Source: Pseudothermotoga elfii DSM 9442 = NBRC 107921 (GTDB lineage: Bacteria; Thermotogota; Thermotogae; Thermotogales; DSM-5069). From it: a stretch of DNA of 64,000 nt. Below, in pieces: positions 33,705-48,206 of the stretch; the stretch's first letter is position 1; every line of letters begins with the position of its first letter. The notes under the pieces are model-generated. The model saw only the letters and a program-made list of their open reading frames with translations. It did not search any database and was not told the DNA's origin. Where the stretch lies: contig NC_022792.1 of assembly GCF_000504085.1 (NCBI RefSeq), positions 1,702,001-1,766,000 on the forward strand. Reading direction: 5' to 3'. Made by a program: the position numbers and the translations under genes.

Positions 33705-34244
33705 TCATTTGATACTTTCTTCAAGTTCCTCTATTATCTCATAAACAATCTTTATCGCTTTCACAGAAGAAAAGTCCGGTAGATATTTTTTCAATTCACC
33801 ACTTGAAATAAAATAGGTTTTTCCATCTTTGAATCTATTCACCTGAAGTTCGACATCTGTAGCTGATAATATCAGGGTAGATAAACACCCTGCAAGGTCA
33901 CCTATACTCTGACAATCTACATGATTTGTATCAAAACACGCTTTCACAAATGTTCCAGCGCCTTTGGCGCTCCTGATTTCTACAGCCCCACCGGTTGCTT
34001 CAGCAGCTTGTTTCAAAAAAGGCAATCCAAGACCAAATTTTCTTATTCTGTGATCTCTTGTTGTGTAAAAAGGATCAAAAGCAGTTTTCAGCTGTTCATC
34101 GTCCATTCCACATCCATCATCTTCAACCTGGAAACAAAACCAATTTTTATTTTCTTCTATCGTTAAGGTTATCTTTTTTGCTTCCGCTTTAAACGAATTC
34201 TGCGTTATGTCCATTATGTGATCAGCTATGGTTCGCAATCCCAT
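33705..34244 (-). CDS. Stand-alone histidine-kinase-type ATPase (HATPase)
   Basis: A 179-residue GHKL ATPase domain without a dimerisation/histidine domain. The N-box is DHIMDITQNSFKAEA, G1 is VEDDGCGMDD, the F-box is FDPFYTTRDHRIRKFG, and G2 is GLGLPFLKQAAEATGG. The C-terminal 60 residues (INRFKDGKTYFISSGELKKYLP) are variable. With no H-box it cannot be an ordinary sensor kinase; it may phosphorylate another protein or only bind ATP. Related genes accompany [FeFe]-hydrogenase loci in anaerobes. It overlaps the PHP gene by 19 bases. Confidence 0.82.
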   Translation of the reverse strand: MGLRTIADHIMDITQNSFKAEAKKITLTIEENKNWFCFQVEDDGCGMDDEQLKTAFDPFYTTRDHRIRKFGLGLPFLKQAAEATGGAVEIRSAKGAGTFVKACFDTNHVDCQSIGDLAGCLSTLILSATDVELQVNRFKDGKTYFISSGELKKYLPDFSSVKAIKIVYEIIEELEESIK

Positions 34245-34948
34245 ATAGACAGGATCCTTTCTCGTTCTGGTATTGATAAGACACTGAATACTTCTTTTAA
34301 GTTCAGCTTATGCAGTTTGAATCTTGTGAATCTACAGCCTATTTCATCTGGAGTATGCGCATCAGAATTACTCAAAACCACAAAACCAGAATCAATAGCC
34401 TTTTTCCATCCTTCCCTGGTGCGTGCTTCAACGACCTTTACCCGGTCGTCTTTCGGAAAAACCCCTAATTGATACAATATACCAAACCTTCGCTCGATAT
34501 GAGCATAGACAGGTATTCCTTCATAAAAGATTATGGTATCTACCAACTCTTTCAATCTTAATTGAAGGGCACTCCCAAGAAAAATTTCTTCAACTTTCAC
34601 AAATTCGTCTTTCTCATTGACAACTACCTGATATCCCATTAGCTCTGGATCATAAGGAAAAACTGGCAAAAACTTTCTAACATATTTGCAGAATCTGTCT
34701 AATTTTTCAAAAGAACTGAAATAAGCAAGCACATGTACTTCTTCAAGAGAGGTTAGTTCTACACCGGGCAGAAGCAACCGGTACAGTCTCTTTTTAAAAC
34801 TTTTCACATTATTGCACGCATTGTGGTCAGTTATTGAAAGAATATCTATACCTTCACTGTCTGCTTTCTGAGAAACCACACCCGGTACCATTGTTATGTC
34901 TGCACATGGTGACAGGCATGAATGCAAGTGCAAATCTGCTTTTATCAT
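34226..34948 (-). CDS. PHP-domain phosphoesterase
   Basis: A 240-residue PHP-fold metallo-phosphoesterase. Metal motifs are DLHLHSCLSPCAD (about 5-17), LSITDHNACNN (about 38-48), VYAHIERRFG (about 148) and SNSDAHTPDEIG (about 203-214). These define a complete three-metal site. The substrate is unknown; related single-domain PHP proteins hydrolyse nucleotides or phosphate monoesters. It is coupled by ATGA overlap to the upstream DRTGG gene and is part of a conserved signalling cassette. Confidence 0.85.
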   Translation of the reverse strand: MIKADLHLHSCLSPCADITMVPGVVSQKADSEGIDILSITDHNACNNVKSFKKRLYRLLLPGVELTSLEEVHVLAYFSSFEKLDRFCKYVRKFLPVFPYDPELMGYQVVVNEKDEFVKVEEIFLGSALQLRLKELVDTIIFYEGIPVYAHIERRFGILYQLGVFPKDDRVKVVEARTREGWKKAIDSGFVVLSNSDAHTPDEIGCRFTRFKLHKLNLKEVFSVLSIPERERILSIWDCEP

Positions 34949-35277
34949 GGTTTAATACCAATCGAATAAAGTAAACCAGCTATCTCAAAAGGAGATTTTT
35001 CTGTTCTAAGTAAACATATGTTTTCATGTTGAGCCTTTGAAACAGTCTCCTCAGGATATTTGTGAGCATTGCACAACACAATCGCTCTTATTCCAGAAAT
35101 TGCGGCTACAGCAACAATATTAACATGGGATTGCACTGTTATCCACACAGAGGAAGGTTTCGCGTGCGACATTACTTCACTCAAAAGATCACCAGTGCAA
35201 CCATGAACTACTTCTTCCTTGCAATCTCCACAAACAACCTCTAAACCAATTTTGCTGACCATCTCAGAAATCTTCAT
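34945..35277 (-). CDS. DRTGG-like domain protein (second copy)
   Basis: A 110-residue protein with the fold pattern of stand-alone DRTGG domains: a leading VSKIGLEVVCGDC and a core WITVQSHVNIVAVAAISGIRAIVLCNAHKYPEETVSKAQHENICLLRTE. It ends FEIAGLLYSIGIKP, nearly the ending of the 117-residue paralogue two genes upstream. DRTGG domains occur in phosphotransacetylase and CBS-domain regulators and probably bind a ligand. The partner could be the neighbouring kinase-like proteins. Stop and start codons overlap with both neighbours by four bases. Confidence 0.78.
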   Translation of the reverse strand: MKISEMVSKIGLEVVCGDCKEEVVHGCTGDLLSEVMSHAKPSSVWITVQSHVNIVAVAAISGIRAIVLCNAHKYPEETVSKAQHENICLLRTEKSPFEIAGLLYSIGIKP

Positions 35278-36221
35278 CCCTTATCCTCCTTCCTCGTCAG
35301 AAATTCCATTTCAACAACTACCCCTGCTCCGACCTTTGACATAACCATCATGTTATCAGAGCATCTTTTAATGTTTGCAAGACCCATTCCTGCTCCGAAC
35401 CCAAGCTCCCTGACATAATCAGGTGCGGTAGAGTAACCTTCACGCATAGCAAGCTCGACATCTTCTATTCCTTTTCCGTGATCTTCGACTCTTACAAACA
35501 CACTGTCAGGTTTTATAAAGCAATATATACCACCAGAACTGCCGCTATGAATCACAACATTGGTTTCGGCTTCATAAGTAGCTATTGCAACTCTTCTTGC
35601 TGTTTTCTCATCAACACCTTTCGCAAGGAGAAACTGTCTCAATCTTGAAGCACCTATACCAGCCAGATTAATATCGTAATAATCTATTGGAAAGTAAAAA
35701 TCTGCACCCGATTTATCAAGTCGCTCACCAGTTAGAAGAGATCTTGCGAAATATTCGGGGCTATCCAAAACCTCCCGCCGTCTTTCGTCATGGAGGTATA
35801 CCAATCCCAACTTTGTCAAGAGAGCCATCATAACATCGTTTTTTGTGACTATTCCAACCAGTTTGTTTTCTGAATCTACTACCGGGAACCTGCCGTAAGG
35901 CCATTTTTCAAAAACCTCTATCACATCTTTTAAAGTAGAATTGCTCTGAATTGACACAACATTTTTCGTCATTCTCTCTTCAACGGTGTCATCCACATAA
36001 CCACCTTCCAGAGCTTTTATGATATCTTCGATGCTCACTATACCTATAAGTTTTCGTTCAGAATCAACAACAGGTAATCCAGAGATTCTTTTTATACGAA
36101 GTATTTCTTTGACCTGCCTCAAGGTTCTATCAGGTTTAACTGAGATGACATTCGAATTCATGATTTCTGTGATGGGCATATCCAGAAAAAAACTCTGCAC
36201 GCGATCAAGAATCTTTTCCAC
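35274..36221 (-). CDS. CBS-pair protein fused to an anti-sigma-type HATPase
   Basis: A 315-residue fusion. A CBS pair (about 18-72 and 85-140: MNSNVISVKPDRTLRQVKEILRIKRISGLPVVDSE, then MTKNVVSIQSNSTLKDV) is followed by a linker. A HATPase domain of the SpoIIAB/RsbW group spans about 195-310: ATYEAETNVVIHSGS (N-box), VEDHGKGIEDV (G1), LGFGAGMGLANIKRCSD (G2). CBS pairs bind adenine nucleotides, so the kinase may sense cell energy charge. Start GTG 36221 has only a weak SD, but coupling to the upstream gene (six-base gap) may help. Confidence 0.87.
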   Translation of the reverse strand: MEKILDRVQSFFLDMPITEIMNSNVISVKPDRTLRQVKEILRIKRISGLPVVDSERKLIGIVSIEDIIKALEGGYVDDTVEERMTKNVVSIQSNSTLKDVIEVFEKWPYGRFPVVDSENKLVGIVTKNDVMMALLTKLGLVYLHDERRREVLDSPEYFARSLLTGERLDKSGADFYFPIDYYDINLAGIGASRLRQFLLAKGVDEKTARRVAIATYEAETNVVIHSGSSGGIYCFIKPDSVFVRVEDHGKGIEDVELAMREGYSTAPDYVRELGFGAGMGLANIKRCSDNMMVMSKVGAGVVVEMEFLTRKEDKG

Positions 36222-36227
36222 AGAGCA

Positions 36228-36581
36228 TCACACTTCCCAAATTGGTTTAAGTCCTCTGGAATAAAGCCTACCACAGGCTTCAAACATCGTCATTTTGGTT
36301 ATAGCAAGGACTATATTTGATAACTTTGCCATTTCTATTGTCTCGTCCGGAAGGCGATCCCTTCTTACTATTATGACTGCTTTTATACCTACAACATCAG
36401 CTGTTCGCACAACCTGTGGGGTTGTCAATCCTGTCAAAAGGACCATATTGGGTCTCGCAAGCGCAAGAATATCGCTCATTAAATCAGAGACAGTCACATA
36501 TTCAAAATCAAGCTCGTCGATCATTTCCTCACCTGTGATAACTCTGGCTTTCAATTCAGATAGAATTTCAGAAAGTTTCAT
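36228..36581 (-). CDS. DRTGG-like domain protein (first copy)
   Basis: A 117-residue stand-alone DRTGG domain: [88 protein letters not shown] in segments, ending [16 protein letters not shown]. It is paralogous to the 110-residue protein at 34945, and the two flank the CBS-HATPase gene. ATG 36581 overlaps the thyX stop (ATGA) and has AAAGGAG upstream. It is the first gene of the signalling cassette. Confidence 0.82.
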
Positions 36582-45450: not shown

Positions 45451-47208
45451 ATGCTGAGAACCCATACATGCGGTGAATTAACTATCAAAGATGTGGGTAA
45501 GAAAGTCATTCTTGCAGGGTGGATCGACAGAATTAGAGATCTTGGTGGAGTGAAGTTTTTAATGCTGAGAGACAGATACGGTCAAACCCAGATTATTCTT
45601 TCCCAAAATTGTCAGATAAACCTGCGTAGGGAATCTGTCGTGCAAATCGAGGGTGTAGTCCAAAAAAGGCCTGAAGAAACTATAAACAAGGACCTTTTGA
45701 CAGGAGAGATAGAAGTTTTTGCAGAAAAAGTAAATGTTTTTTCATCACCCGAAAAAGATCTGCCTTTTTACCCGGGAGAAACAAAATTACCAGCCGAAGA
45801 AATTAGACTGAAATACCGCTACATTGACCTTCGGAGGAAAGAAGTTTCAGACAGAATAATTACAAGACACAAAGTTACCCAATGCATCAGAAATTATTTA
45901 AGCAAGAATGGTTTCATCGAAGTGGAAACTCCGTTCTTGACGAAGAGTACCCCGGAAGGCGCGCGAGATTTTTTAGTACCTTCTCGACTGAAACCAGGTA
46001 CTTTCTACGCACTCCCTCAATCACCTCAACTTTTTAAGCAACTGCTTATGATCGGTGGCATAGACAGATACTTTCAAGTGGTTCGGTGTTTCAGAGACGA
46101 AGACCTGAGGGCAGATAGGCAACCAGAATTTACTCAAATAGATATAGAGATGTCTTTTAATACTATGGATGATGTCCTGGAGATAACAGAAGGCATGATT
46201 AAACATCTTTTCAAAGAAGTGCTCCAGGTAGATTTGCCAGGCAAACTTGACAGACTTACTTATAACGAGTGTATGAACAAATACGGTTCAGACAAGCCGG
46301 ATCGAAGAATTGGCATGGAATTTTTTGATCTTTCCAAACACTTTAAAACATGTGAATATCACGCGATAAATGCTGAGCTTTCCAGTGGCGGTGTTGTAAA
46401 GGGATTCGTTGTTCGGGATTTCGCAAATAAGATGAGCAGAAAACTTGCCGATGAACTAAACGAAATAGCAAAATCACTCGGTGGTGGTGGCATACTGTGG
46501 TTTTCATTTGATTCGCCTGAATCGATTAAAGGTGCTGGGGCAAAATATTTGCAGAAAAACTACAATTCAGTTGCAAAAGAGCTTTCAATAAACTATAATG
46601 ATGTTTGTGTACTTTCGGCAGGTAAAATTGACATAGTTAACACAGTGCTTGGTGAAGTAAGAAAAATTCTGGGTGAGAGGTATTTCTCTGATCTGCGGAA
46701 AGGATTTGATATTTTTTGGGTTACGGACTTTCCAATGTTTGAATATAGTGAAGAAGAAAATAGATTCGTTGCTCAACATCATCCATTCACTATGCCAAAC
46801 CTTGATGATCTAAAAAAGTACAAAAACAGCGATCTTTCAAAGATCCGAGCTCAATCTTACGACATCGTAATAAATGGGTTCGAAGTGGGCTCAGGCAGTA
46901 TAAGAATTCACGATGCTGAACTCCAGAGAGAGATTTTCAAATTGATGCGGCTTACCGAAGAGGAAGTAAAATTGAAATTCGGTTTTCTTTTAGAAGCGTT
47001 TCAATATGGTGCACCACCACATGGAGGTATAGCGCTTGGACTGGATCGATTAACTGCTATAATTTGCGGTGTACCTACAATAAGGGAGGTTATAGCTTTT
47101 CCAAAAACATCGAGTGGTATTTGTCCACTGACAGGTGCACCAGATGTTGTAAATCAGAAACAACTTGATGAACTAAAAATAATTCTGGGGGGCGATCACT
47201 GTGAATGA
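45451..47208 (+). CDS. aspS: Aspartyl-tRNA synthetase
   Basis: A 585-residue class II synthetase of the bacterial type. An N-terminal OB anticodon-binding domain (1-105) is followed by motif 1 around NGFIEVETPFL, motif 2 FRDEDLRADRQPEFTQIDIEMSF, a GAD insertion (about 290-400) and motif 3 GIALGLDRL. It charges tRNA-Asp. Whether it also makes Asp-tRNA-Asn cannot be decided from the window, as no gatCAB or asnS is seen. It leads a long plus-strand operon through stas, cmk, ispH, S1, der and plsY. Confidence 0.96.
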   Translation: MLRTHTCGELTIKDVGKKVILAGWIDRIRDLGGVKFLMLRDRYGQTQIILSQNCQINLRRESVVQIEGVVQKRPEETINKDLLTGEIEVFAEKVNVFSSPEKDLPFYPGETKLPAEEIRLKYRYIDLRRKEVSDRIITRHKVTQCIRNYLSKNGFIEVETPFLTKSTPEGARDFLVPSRLKPGTFYALPQSPQLFKQLLMIGGIDRYFQVVRCFRDEDLRADRQPEFTQIDIEMSFNTMDDVLEITEGMIKHLFKEVLQVDLPGKLDRLTYNECMNKYGSDKPDRRIGMEFFDLSKHFKTCEYHAINAELSSGGVVKGFVVRDFANKMSRKLADELNEIAKSLGGGGILWFSFDSPESIKGAGAKYLQKNYNSVAKELSINYNDVCVLSAGKIDIVNTVLGEVRKILGERYFSDLRKGFDIFWVTDFPMFEYSEEENRFVAQHHPFTMPNLDDLKKYKNSDLSKIRAQSYDIVINGFEVGSGSIRIHDAELQREIFKLMRLTEEEVKLKFGFLLEAFQYGAPPHGGIALGLDRLTAIICGVPTIREVIAFPKTSSGICPLTGAPDVVNQKQLDELKIILGGDHCE

Positions 47209-47533
47209 TATCAAAGTGAAATTTGAACAGCAGCAGATGAAGTTAATCTGTAAGATTGATGGTGATTTTGACGCATATCATTCTGCAGATATAAAAAAAA
47301 TGATAAAGGAACAGATAGAAACATCAAACCACAGAAAATTAGTAATTGATATGTCTGATGTACCTTATATCGACAGCGCAGGACTTGGAACTATGGTCGC
47401 CATCTTGAAAGATGCGAGAAATTATGGAAAAGAAGTAATTCTTACTTCGATGAGGCAGAATGTGAAGCGCATTTTTGAAATGACGAGGCTCGACAAGGTT
47501 TTTCAGATTGTTGACACACCGGAGGAGGCATGA
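47201..47533 (+). CDS. STAS anti-sigma factor antagonist
   Basis: A 110-residue SpoIIAA/RsbV-like protein. The phosphorylation site is in YIDSAGLGTMV (likely S59), preceded by KLVIDMSDVP. The unphosphorylated protein sequesters an anti-sigma kinase; phosphorylation frees the kinase. The CBS-HATPase at 35274 is a possible partner elsewhere in the window, but they are not adjacent. Start GTG 47201 overlaps aspS by 8 bases, and cmk follows with a one-base gap. Confidence 0.9.
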   Translation: MNDIKVKFEQQQMKLICKIDGDFDAYHSADIKKMIKEQIETSNHRKLVIDMSDVPYIDSAGLGTMVAILKDARNYGKEVILTSMRQNVKRIFEMTRLDKVFQIVDTPEEA

Positions 47534-47534
47534 A

Positions 47535-48206
47535 TTGAACCGCTTTTTAATAGCTATCGACGGACCTGCTGGTTCTGGGAAATCTTCAGTTGCAAAACTT
47601 GTTGCACAGAAAATGAATATGAATTACCTTGATACAGGAGCCATGTACAGAGCCGTGGCACTTTATTTGCATTCGAAGGGCCTTTCGGCAAAAGACGATC
47701 TAAAAAAACATCTGGCAGAGATAGATATTGAATATATCGACGGAGAACTCTATTTAAATAAAAAGAAGGTTTCAGATGAAATAAGATCATCAGAAGCAGG
47801 AAAATTAGCATCAGATTTTGCAACAATACCTGCAGTTCGAGAGCGATTAACTCAGATACAAAGACATATATGCCAAAATGGAAAATTTGTGGTAGAAGGA
47901 AGGGATATTGGAACAGTTGTTTTACCCGAAGCAGATGTAAAGATTTTCCTCACAGCTTCTTTCAAAGAACGTGTGAGGAGAAGGTTCGAAGAATTGAAAG
48001 CAAAAAATATGAACCTTACGATGGAAGATATTGCAGATCAAATAAAGATCAGAGACAGACAAGATTCAAGCAGATCAATAGCTCCCTTGAAACCTGCTGA
48101 GGACGCCATCGTAATAGATACCACATCCAAAGACATAAACGAAGTGGCAGACGAAATATGCCAGATTGCCTTCAGGAGGATAAAAGTTGAGGATAATTGT
48201 TGCTGA
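47535..48206 (+). CDS. cmk: Cytidylate kinase
   Basis: A 223-residue CMP/dCMP kinase: P-loop AIDGPAGSGKSSVAKLVA (about 7-24), DTGAMYRAVAL, the FVVEGRDIGTVVLPEADVKIFLTAS segment and the lid RDRQDSSRSIAPLKPAEDAIVIDTT. Start TTG 47535 has GGAGGAGG six bases upstream; the upstream in-frame TTG would extend into stas. It overlaps ispH by 20 bases. Confidence 0.95.
   Translation: MNRFLIAIDGPAGSGKSSVAKLVAQKMNMNYLDTGAMYRAVALYLHSKGLSAKDDLKKHLAEIDIEYIDGELYLNKKKVSDEIRSSEAGKLASDFATIPAVRERLTQIQRHICQNGKFVVEGRDIGTVVLPEADVKIFLTASFKERVRRRFEELKAKNMNLTMEDIADQIKIRDRQDSSRSIAPLKPAEDAIVIDTTSKDINEVADEICQIAFRRIKVEDNCC

Follow-up and report, generated by a model that had tools for sequence, protein, structure and literature searches.

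The stretch of the Pseudothermotoga elfii DSM 9442 chromosome analysed here (the window; 64,000 nucleotides, NC_022792.1, positions 1702001-1766000) has a cassette of five small genes at 33705-36581 on the reverse strand, lying between thyX and bamA, and the question it raises is what such a set of apparent signalling proteins may control. The genes, named A to E, code for two paralogous DRTGG proteins (A and C), a CBS pair fused to a GHKL kinase domain (B), a PHP-family phosphoesterase (D) and a second GHKL ATPase (E). A regulatory role is supported by genomics. What the analysis shows directly is which genes are present, that they are retained all or none, that their active sites are intact, that they are linked to HydBC and that the input gene is exchanged. 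The cassette is probably a module dedicated to the regulation of the HydBC-based (NuoEF-like) electron-bifurcating enzymes by which anaerobes produce or take up hydrogen, acting as a CBS-gated, partner-switch-like kinase/phosphoesterase, with the window cassette appearing to be an unlinked, CBS-input form of this uncharacterised module.

Retention of the Cassette within the Thermotogota

A preliminary description of the window had called for a gene-neighbourhood survey of the five families, and co-occurrence was found to be clearly conserved, both in a sample of 101 Thermotogota genomes (82 of them good) and in other phyla. Within the Thermotogota sample B was detected in 79 genomes, while A, B, D and E were all present in 77, all absent in 19 and mixed in five. 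All five mixed genomes are incomplete assemblies, there being no mixed case among the 82 good genomes. C was counted less strictly, being reached through the A profile.

The order thyX-A-B-C-D-E-bamA is present in families f1, f9, and f11, and four f5 loci have the run A-B-C-D-E-HydC-x-HydB. Elsewhere the set has been dispersed. Profile searches show it split between three sites in f3, namely A, B and C-D-E (in genome G012 these are at 1278607, 488600 and 1709103-1710685 respectively), E lies apart in f2 (G019, E at 1151649 and A-D at 1418003-1420278), and A-B and C-D-E are on different contigs in f4 and f8. An initial view of the neighbourhoods, by which f3 had lost A, C, D, and E, was wrong, the genes being present at other sites. 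As A, B, D, and E are kept or absent together and are also kept after scattering, the five genes are a functional unit inherited as a set, retention after repeated dispersal being stronger evidence than operon linkage. It had been considered beforehand that relatives might have a directly linked hydrogenase operon with no role specific to the cassette. Such linkage was indeed found, in f5, but the fact that all five genes are kept even where they have been dispersed speaks for a specific role.

Some neighbouring genes in these families may be mentioned. In f3, a conserved protein of about 126 residues, CoA-binding-like by eye, precedes the dispersed B (L044-L047, L049, L055); considered as a diverged A, it was rejected as it has no match to the A model. 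In the Thermotoga-like f2 (L048, L050, L051), the gene immediately upstream of A codes for about 130 residues with a C-x-x-C-P-A-K motif, RseC/SoxR-reducing-like by eye, and the one after D is gltX-like. In one f5 genome (G069:C78:28479-31690), only C, a truncated D and E were found, beside a HydA gene, this partial set being either cassette decay or an assembly artefact.

Linkage to HydBC in Other Phyla

A scan of contigs from public genomes with the PHP (D) alignment gave 561 relatives, the best 80 of which were taken; the loci were thus picked by the PHP gene alone. These best 80 of 561 represent 18 named phyla by their NCBI titles, 17 besides the Thermotogota (at least 18 overall), and in most of the loci A-B, C-D, and D-E are adjacent in order. 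Since the same order recurs across the Thermotogota and at least 18 named phyla, the cassette is not a chance arrangement.

HydB is present in 47 of the 78 non-Thermotogota loci and in 24 of the 35 with full flanks. The expectation that genes of this type accompany HydC/HydB/HydA operons is therefore borne out, the linkage being seen in f5 as well as in other phyla. The partner subunit beside HydBC could be classed in 32 loci, as [FeFe]-hydrogenase (20), molybdopterin (8) or HdrA-like (4), and as it varies in this manner the common factor is HydBC. In 23 genomes without a bifurcating enzyme at the locus, some PF02906 protein was present in 18 (in four of these only as a single weak match of the type of F, a gene described below), and PF02906 was absent in the remaining five, which have Nitrospirota-type loci.

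In two loci (L083, L144) the genes form a single run, Fdx-HydS-SpoIIE-A-B-F-C-D-E-fdx-HydB-HydA-HydC, and in four clostridial loci (L124, L135, L136, L147) E is found between HydC and HydB. Furthermore, in three cases an N-terminal receiver domain is fused to HydC (NuoE-like) beside the cassette or a partial copy of it (Table 1), which is the best hint of control at the protein/enzyme level. Another form of HydC, with an N-terminal segment binding flavin adenine dinucleotide (FAD), is found in L085, L120, and L130, with HdrA-like partner subunits nearby.

Exchange of the Input Module

In 39-40 of the 80 loci a gene of about 450 codons, termed F, lies between B and C. The architecture of its product comprises N-terminal [4Fe-4S] motifs, an H-domain and a C-terminal Cx2Cx4Cx15-17C in 39/39, and no PAS domain was identified in those scanned. 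Neither the window cassette nor its neighbourhoods in the Thermotogota contain this M2e-type hydrogenase-like gene. By raw counts, uncorrected for relatedness, F occupies the B-C position in 0 of 18 loci with a CBS-bearing B and in 40 of 54 where B is without CBS. Since F and the CBS pair are never present together, the input module is swapped, being the CBS pair here and a sensory hydrogenase-type protein elsewhere. Among loci with neither, a molybdopterin partner is found in five of six, and some loci of this kind have a histidine kinase with receiver proteins (some Nitrospirota-type). In a tree of the B kinase domain, built on few columns, the CBS label needs three changes, two of them forced by well-supported branches; this count is soft, and a single origin of the CBS-kinase fusion is not supported.

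Domains, Folds and Active Sites

The gene identities first given for the window agree with the Pfam results, the fold of A and the metal ligands of D. Pfam identifies two CBS repeats (2.7e-32) and HATPase_c_2 (9e-9) in B and HATPase_c (3.6e-18) in E, the DRTGG domains of A and C and the PHP domain of D being below the curated cut-offs by sequence. The AlphaFold model of A (predicted local distance difference test score, pLDDT, 96) takes the DRTGG fold by Foldseek, the top match being the CBS-DRTGG region of a pyrophosphatase (3L2B/3L31). When solved DRTGG relatives of A and C were sought by sequence alone, no significant true match emerged, but the structure search of A found one. Residues D33 and S36 of A are invariant in 95/95 homologues (T50 in 94), S36 being at a helix start in the model, and D30, S33, H51, and N53 of C are invariant in 98/98.

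In B, residues E217, N221, and D247 together with the glycine-rich lid are kept in 110 sequences. The catalytic Glu (E217) and Mg-binding Asn (N221), the pair of GHKL Ser/Thr kinases, are present in 110/110. A CBS-less homologue of B matches SpoIIAB (1til) at 6e-7 and similarity of B to the SpoIIAB family TIGR01925 is at 2.3e-14, while both CBS repeats retain the S/T-x-x-D adenylate motif. The metal ligands of D (H7, H9, D41, H42, E64, H72, H150, D196, and H198) are all invariant in 106/106 homologues and there is also an invariant C15 in an LSPC motif; the predicted PHP fold is supported by these intact ligands and by solved PHP relatives. The protein resembles PHP enzymes of the nucleoside bisphosphate phosphatase/RNase AM type. 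An antiphage role, as with TrlF/Ppl-type PHP domains fused to a large ATPase, was rejected, D being PHP only with a weak Ppl match over 39 residues. In E, residues N16, D42, G44, and D110 are kept in 83/83 sequences, with D12 also conserved, and its Foldseek neighbours are MutL-type and histidine-kinase ATPase domains.

The proposal of a conserved signalling cassette is upheld; the SpoIIAB-type kinase site is complete, and the CBS adenylate motifs and the PHP ligands are intact. The phosphorelay suggested with it is not borne out, as Pfam finds no HisKA/DHp or receiver domains in A-E, leaving E without the former and the window cassette without the latter.

The Locus and the Hydrogenases of P. 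elfii

The open reading frames, strand and spacing confirm the layout initially reported for the five genes, with a single gap of 6 base pairs (bp) between A and B and overlaps of 4 bp (B-C), 4 bp (C-D), and 19 bp (D-E). At the flanks there is a 4-bp overlap between thyX and A, and 12 bp separate E from bamA. The genome is a single contig of 2.17 megabases (Mb), with the cassette located at 1.7357-1.7386 Mb and B present in one copy.

No hydrogenase gene adjoins the cassette in the P. elfii genome, the nearest [FeFe] genes being at 0.98 and 1.42 Mb. The preliminary description of a cassette without a hydrogenase is thus correct locally but not genome-wide, as there are three PF02906 genes and an operon at 0.98 Mb with the order Fdx - HydS - SpoIIE - HydC - HydB - HydA - Rex-like (HydS and SpoIIE named by Pfam, the remaining genes by inspection). 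Here the sensory hydrogenase HydS and the SpoIIE phosphatase sit with HydABC, about 0.75 Mb from A-E. The cassette is merely unlinked from HydABC in a genome that is not hydrogenase-free. Within the Thermotogota sample, the SpoIIE of this operon is found in 46 genomes, 45 of which have B.

A STAS-domain gene lies between aspS and cmk in the window (Table 1) and is a candidate substrate for a partner-switch kinase; in the whole genome just one other STAS gene was found. Its neighbours aspS and cmk rule it out as a member of the cassette.

Table 1. Positions of the cassette genes, the STAS gene with its neighbours, and hydrogenase loci (window coordinates unless stated; aa, amino acids; kb, kilobases)
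Feature	Position	Strand	Remarks
A, stand-alone DRTGG-domain protein	36228-36581	-	117 aa
A, codon of S36	36474-36476	-	
B, CBS pair + SpoIIAB/RsbT-like GHKL kinase domain	35274-36221	-	315 aa
B, CBS pair	about 35826-36170	-	
B, GHKL kinase domain	about 35307-35645	-	
C, second DRTGG protein, paralogue of A	34945-35277	-	110 aa
C, codon of S33	35179-35181	-	
D, PHP-family phosphoesterase	34226-34948	-	240 aa, PHP only
E, GHKL ATPase without DHp domain	33705-34244	-	179 aa, small C-terminal alpha/beta domain
aspS	45451-47208		
STAS-domain gene	47201-47533	+	
cmk	47508-48206		
HydABC operon	genome 972001-990000 (locus L040)		6.6-14.6 kb of that locus
Receiver-HydC fusion	L096:7508-8371		
Receiver-HydC fusion	L099:11576-12445		
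Receiver-HydC fusion	L122:2490-3359		

Proposed Role and Alternative Explanations

In P. elfii the most likely target of the cassette is the HydABC hydrogenase, whose genes lie at another place in the chromosome. In the scheme proposed here, the direction of control, the phosphoacceptor, the ligand and the protein contacts are predictions, and we infer that the DRTGG proteins are phosphorylated. With A and C docked to it, the CBS pair of B would read an adenine nucleotide (AMP, ADP, ATP or diadenosine tetraphosphate, Ap4A), and the nucleotide state would gate the SpoIIAB-like kinase domain of B. This domain may then phosphorylate a partner, most likely the serine of the invariant D-L-[ML]-S motif of A and/or C. 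The SpoIIE beside HydS and/or D could take the phosphate off, or D could destroy a nucleotide signal, and E would pass the outcome on, either to the bifurcating enzyme itself or to its expression. The input would be provided by a group D-type sensory hydrogenase in most other phyla and by a histidine kinase with receivers in some Nitrospirota. A wider proposal, possible but doubtful at present, is that this is an ancient, previously undescribed cross-phylum signalling system controlling flavin-based electron bifurcation, in which the phosphoacceptor of a SpoIIAB-like kinase is the DRTGG pair in place of STAS, and in which interchangeable inputs (H2-sensing hydrogenase-like, CBS, histidine kinase) on an A-B-C-D-E core control at protein level the HydBC shared by hydrogenases, molybdopterin and HdrA-type enzymes.

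A number of points weigh against a module regulating bifurcating enzymes. Many hydrogenase-bearing Thermotogota are without the cassette, and hydrogenase presence had to be rejected as sole predictor, since possession of any PF02906 gene does not track the cassette in the Thermotogota (p=0.17). Co-loss in this phylum is partly the loss of one operon, leaving few effective events, maybe a handful. There are 34 genomes with B but without SpoIIE, some loci of other phyla have no HydB nearby, and the linkage to thyX and bamA has no evident functional meaning. The window cassette itself has no STAS protein, sigma factor or DNA-binding regulator, and S36 of A and S33 of C could be structural.

The resemblance of B to SpoIIAB, both through the 1til match of its homologue and to TIGR01925 (2.3e-14), would also suit a conventional anti-sigma/partner-switch kinase that acts on one of the two remote STAS proteins to control transcription, with the DRTGG proteins as nucleotide-binding scaffolds only. 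The genome does have two such proteins, one being that at 47201-47533 of the window, and SpoIIE is rarely present without B; but the window STAS gene is outside the cassette between aspS and cmk, and the Pfam-checked cassette loci, where part of the neighbours is annotated, have no STAS or sigma gene. This explanation is considered unlikely. Tight linkage to HydC-(fdx)-HydB is what an accessory role would also predict, with A-E assembling, inserting cofactors into or quality-controlling HydBC complexes, E as a chaperone-like GHKL ATPase and D as a processing phosphoesterase. E models near MutL-type GHKL ATPases as well as histidine kinases, and HydE "may be involved in assembly or signalling" (PMC3315566). 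However, the B-C position or the flanks of the cassette are taken by exchangeable inputs of sensor type (CBS, group D-type hydrogenase, histidine kinase), B belongs to the SpoIIAB-type kinases and is no chaperone, and several genera have hydrogenases but not the cassette; such a role appears rather improbable.

A similarly low probability is given to a nucleotide-signal circuit, in which the kinase/ATPase domains are no protein kinases and a nucleotide second messenger, made or degraded by D, is sensed by the CBS and DRTGG domains. Though D resembles nucleoside bisphosphate phosphatase/RNase AM-type enzymes and A matches an Ap4A/AMP-binding CBS-DRTGG region, most phyla are without the CBS pair yet keep B, D, and E, and the Glu/Asn kinase pair of B is found in 110/110 sequences. 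That these are housekeeping genes brought together by chance in a thyX-bamA operon, or a general stress module with no connection to bifurcation, is strongly disfavoured and has very little chance of being correct. The thyX-A-E-bamA order is conserved in f1, f9, and f11, but order and content recur in other phyla without thyX/bamA and with HydBC, and the set is retained after dispersal.

If A-E do regulate HydBC-based bifurcating enzymes, this would bear on the H2/NADH/ferredoxin balance of anaerobes and on the engineering of H2 or ethanol yield in thermophiles. The regulated object suggested is the HydBC core common to several bifurcating enzymes, beyond the hydrogenase alone, and the proposed steps are accessible through five small, apparently soluble proteins.

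Comparison with Known Systems

No description of A-E as a unit was found in a literature search which was mostly without subscription papers, so that an earlier mention is possible. The group D (M2e) hydrogenase TamHydS is reported to be flanked by a histidine kinase-like ATPase, with a bifurcating hydrogenase downstream (PMC8163306). F of other loci has the same defining group D architecture (PMC8163306, PMC13104023), whereas the window cassette is without F and has a CBS pair fused to B instead, and the published account of the TamHydS operon is without A, C, D, and E. In spite of years of biochemical work on group D sensory hydrogenases, their signalling partners are described as unknown, and finding them was called critical in a 2026 paper (PMC13104023); the cassette names candidate partners for these enzymes.

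In the hydCEBDA operon of Acetobacterium woodii, HydE is a histidine-kinase-like ATP-binding protein that is not part of the enzyme, with "assembly or signalling" given as possible (PMC3315566). E is its putative counterpart by position, the window E being about 0.75 Mb from HydABC. Kinases, phosphatases and PAS sensors are also found upstream of clostridial bifurcating hydrogenases (PMC3492117). A HydS gene, as for the group C HydS of Thermotoga maritima (PMC10055695), is in the P. elfii HydABC operon beside SpoIIE; it is not next to A-E in this genome but is adjacent in L083 and L144.

With SpoIIAB/RsbW-RsbT partner switching, B shares the GHKL kinase type with its Glu/Asn pair, and the SpoIIE/RsbU phosphatase of such systems may have a counterpart in the SpoIIE of the P. 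elfii HydABC operon. The cassette differs in that the place of a STAS antagonist is taken by two DRTGG proteins, a PHP enzyme and a second GHKL ATPase. The CBS-DRTGG region of family II pyrophosphatases (cdnPPase type; 3L2B, 3L31) combines the same two domain types, but in the cassette CBS (B) and DRTGG (A) are on separate chains and there is no pyrophosphatase domain. The HisKA/DHp and receiver domains of a two-component phosphorelay occur only as extra genes in Nitrospirota-type loci. As for the HydBC bifurcating operon, HydC and HydB are not at the P. elfii cassette but are present in the f5 run.

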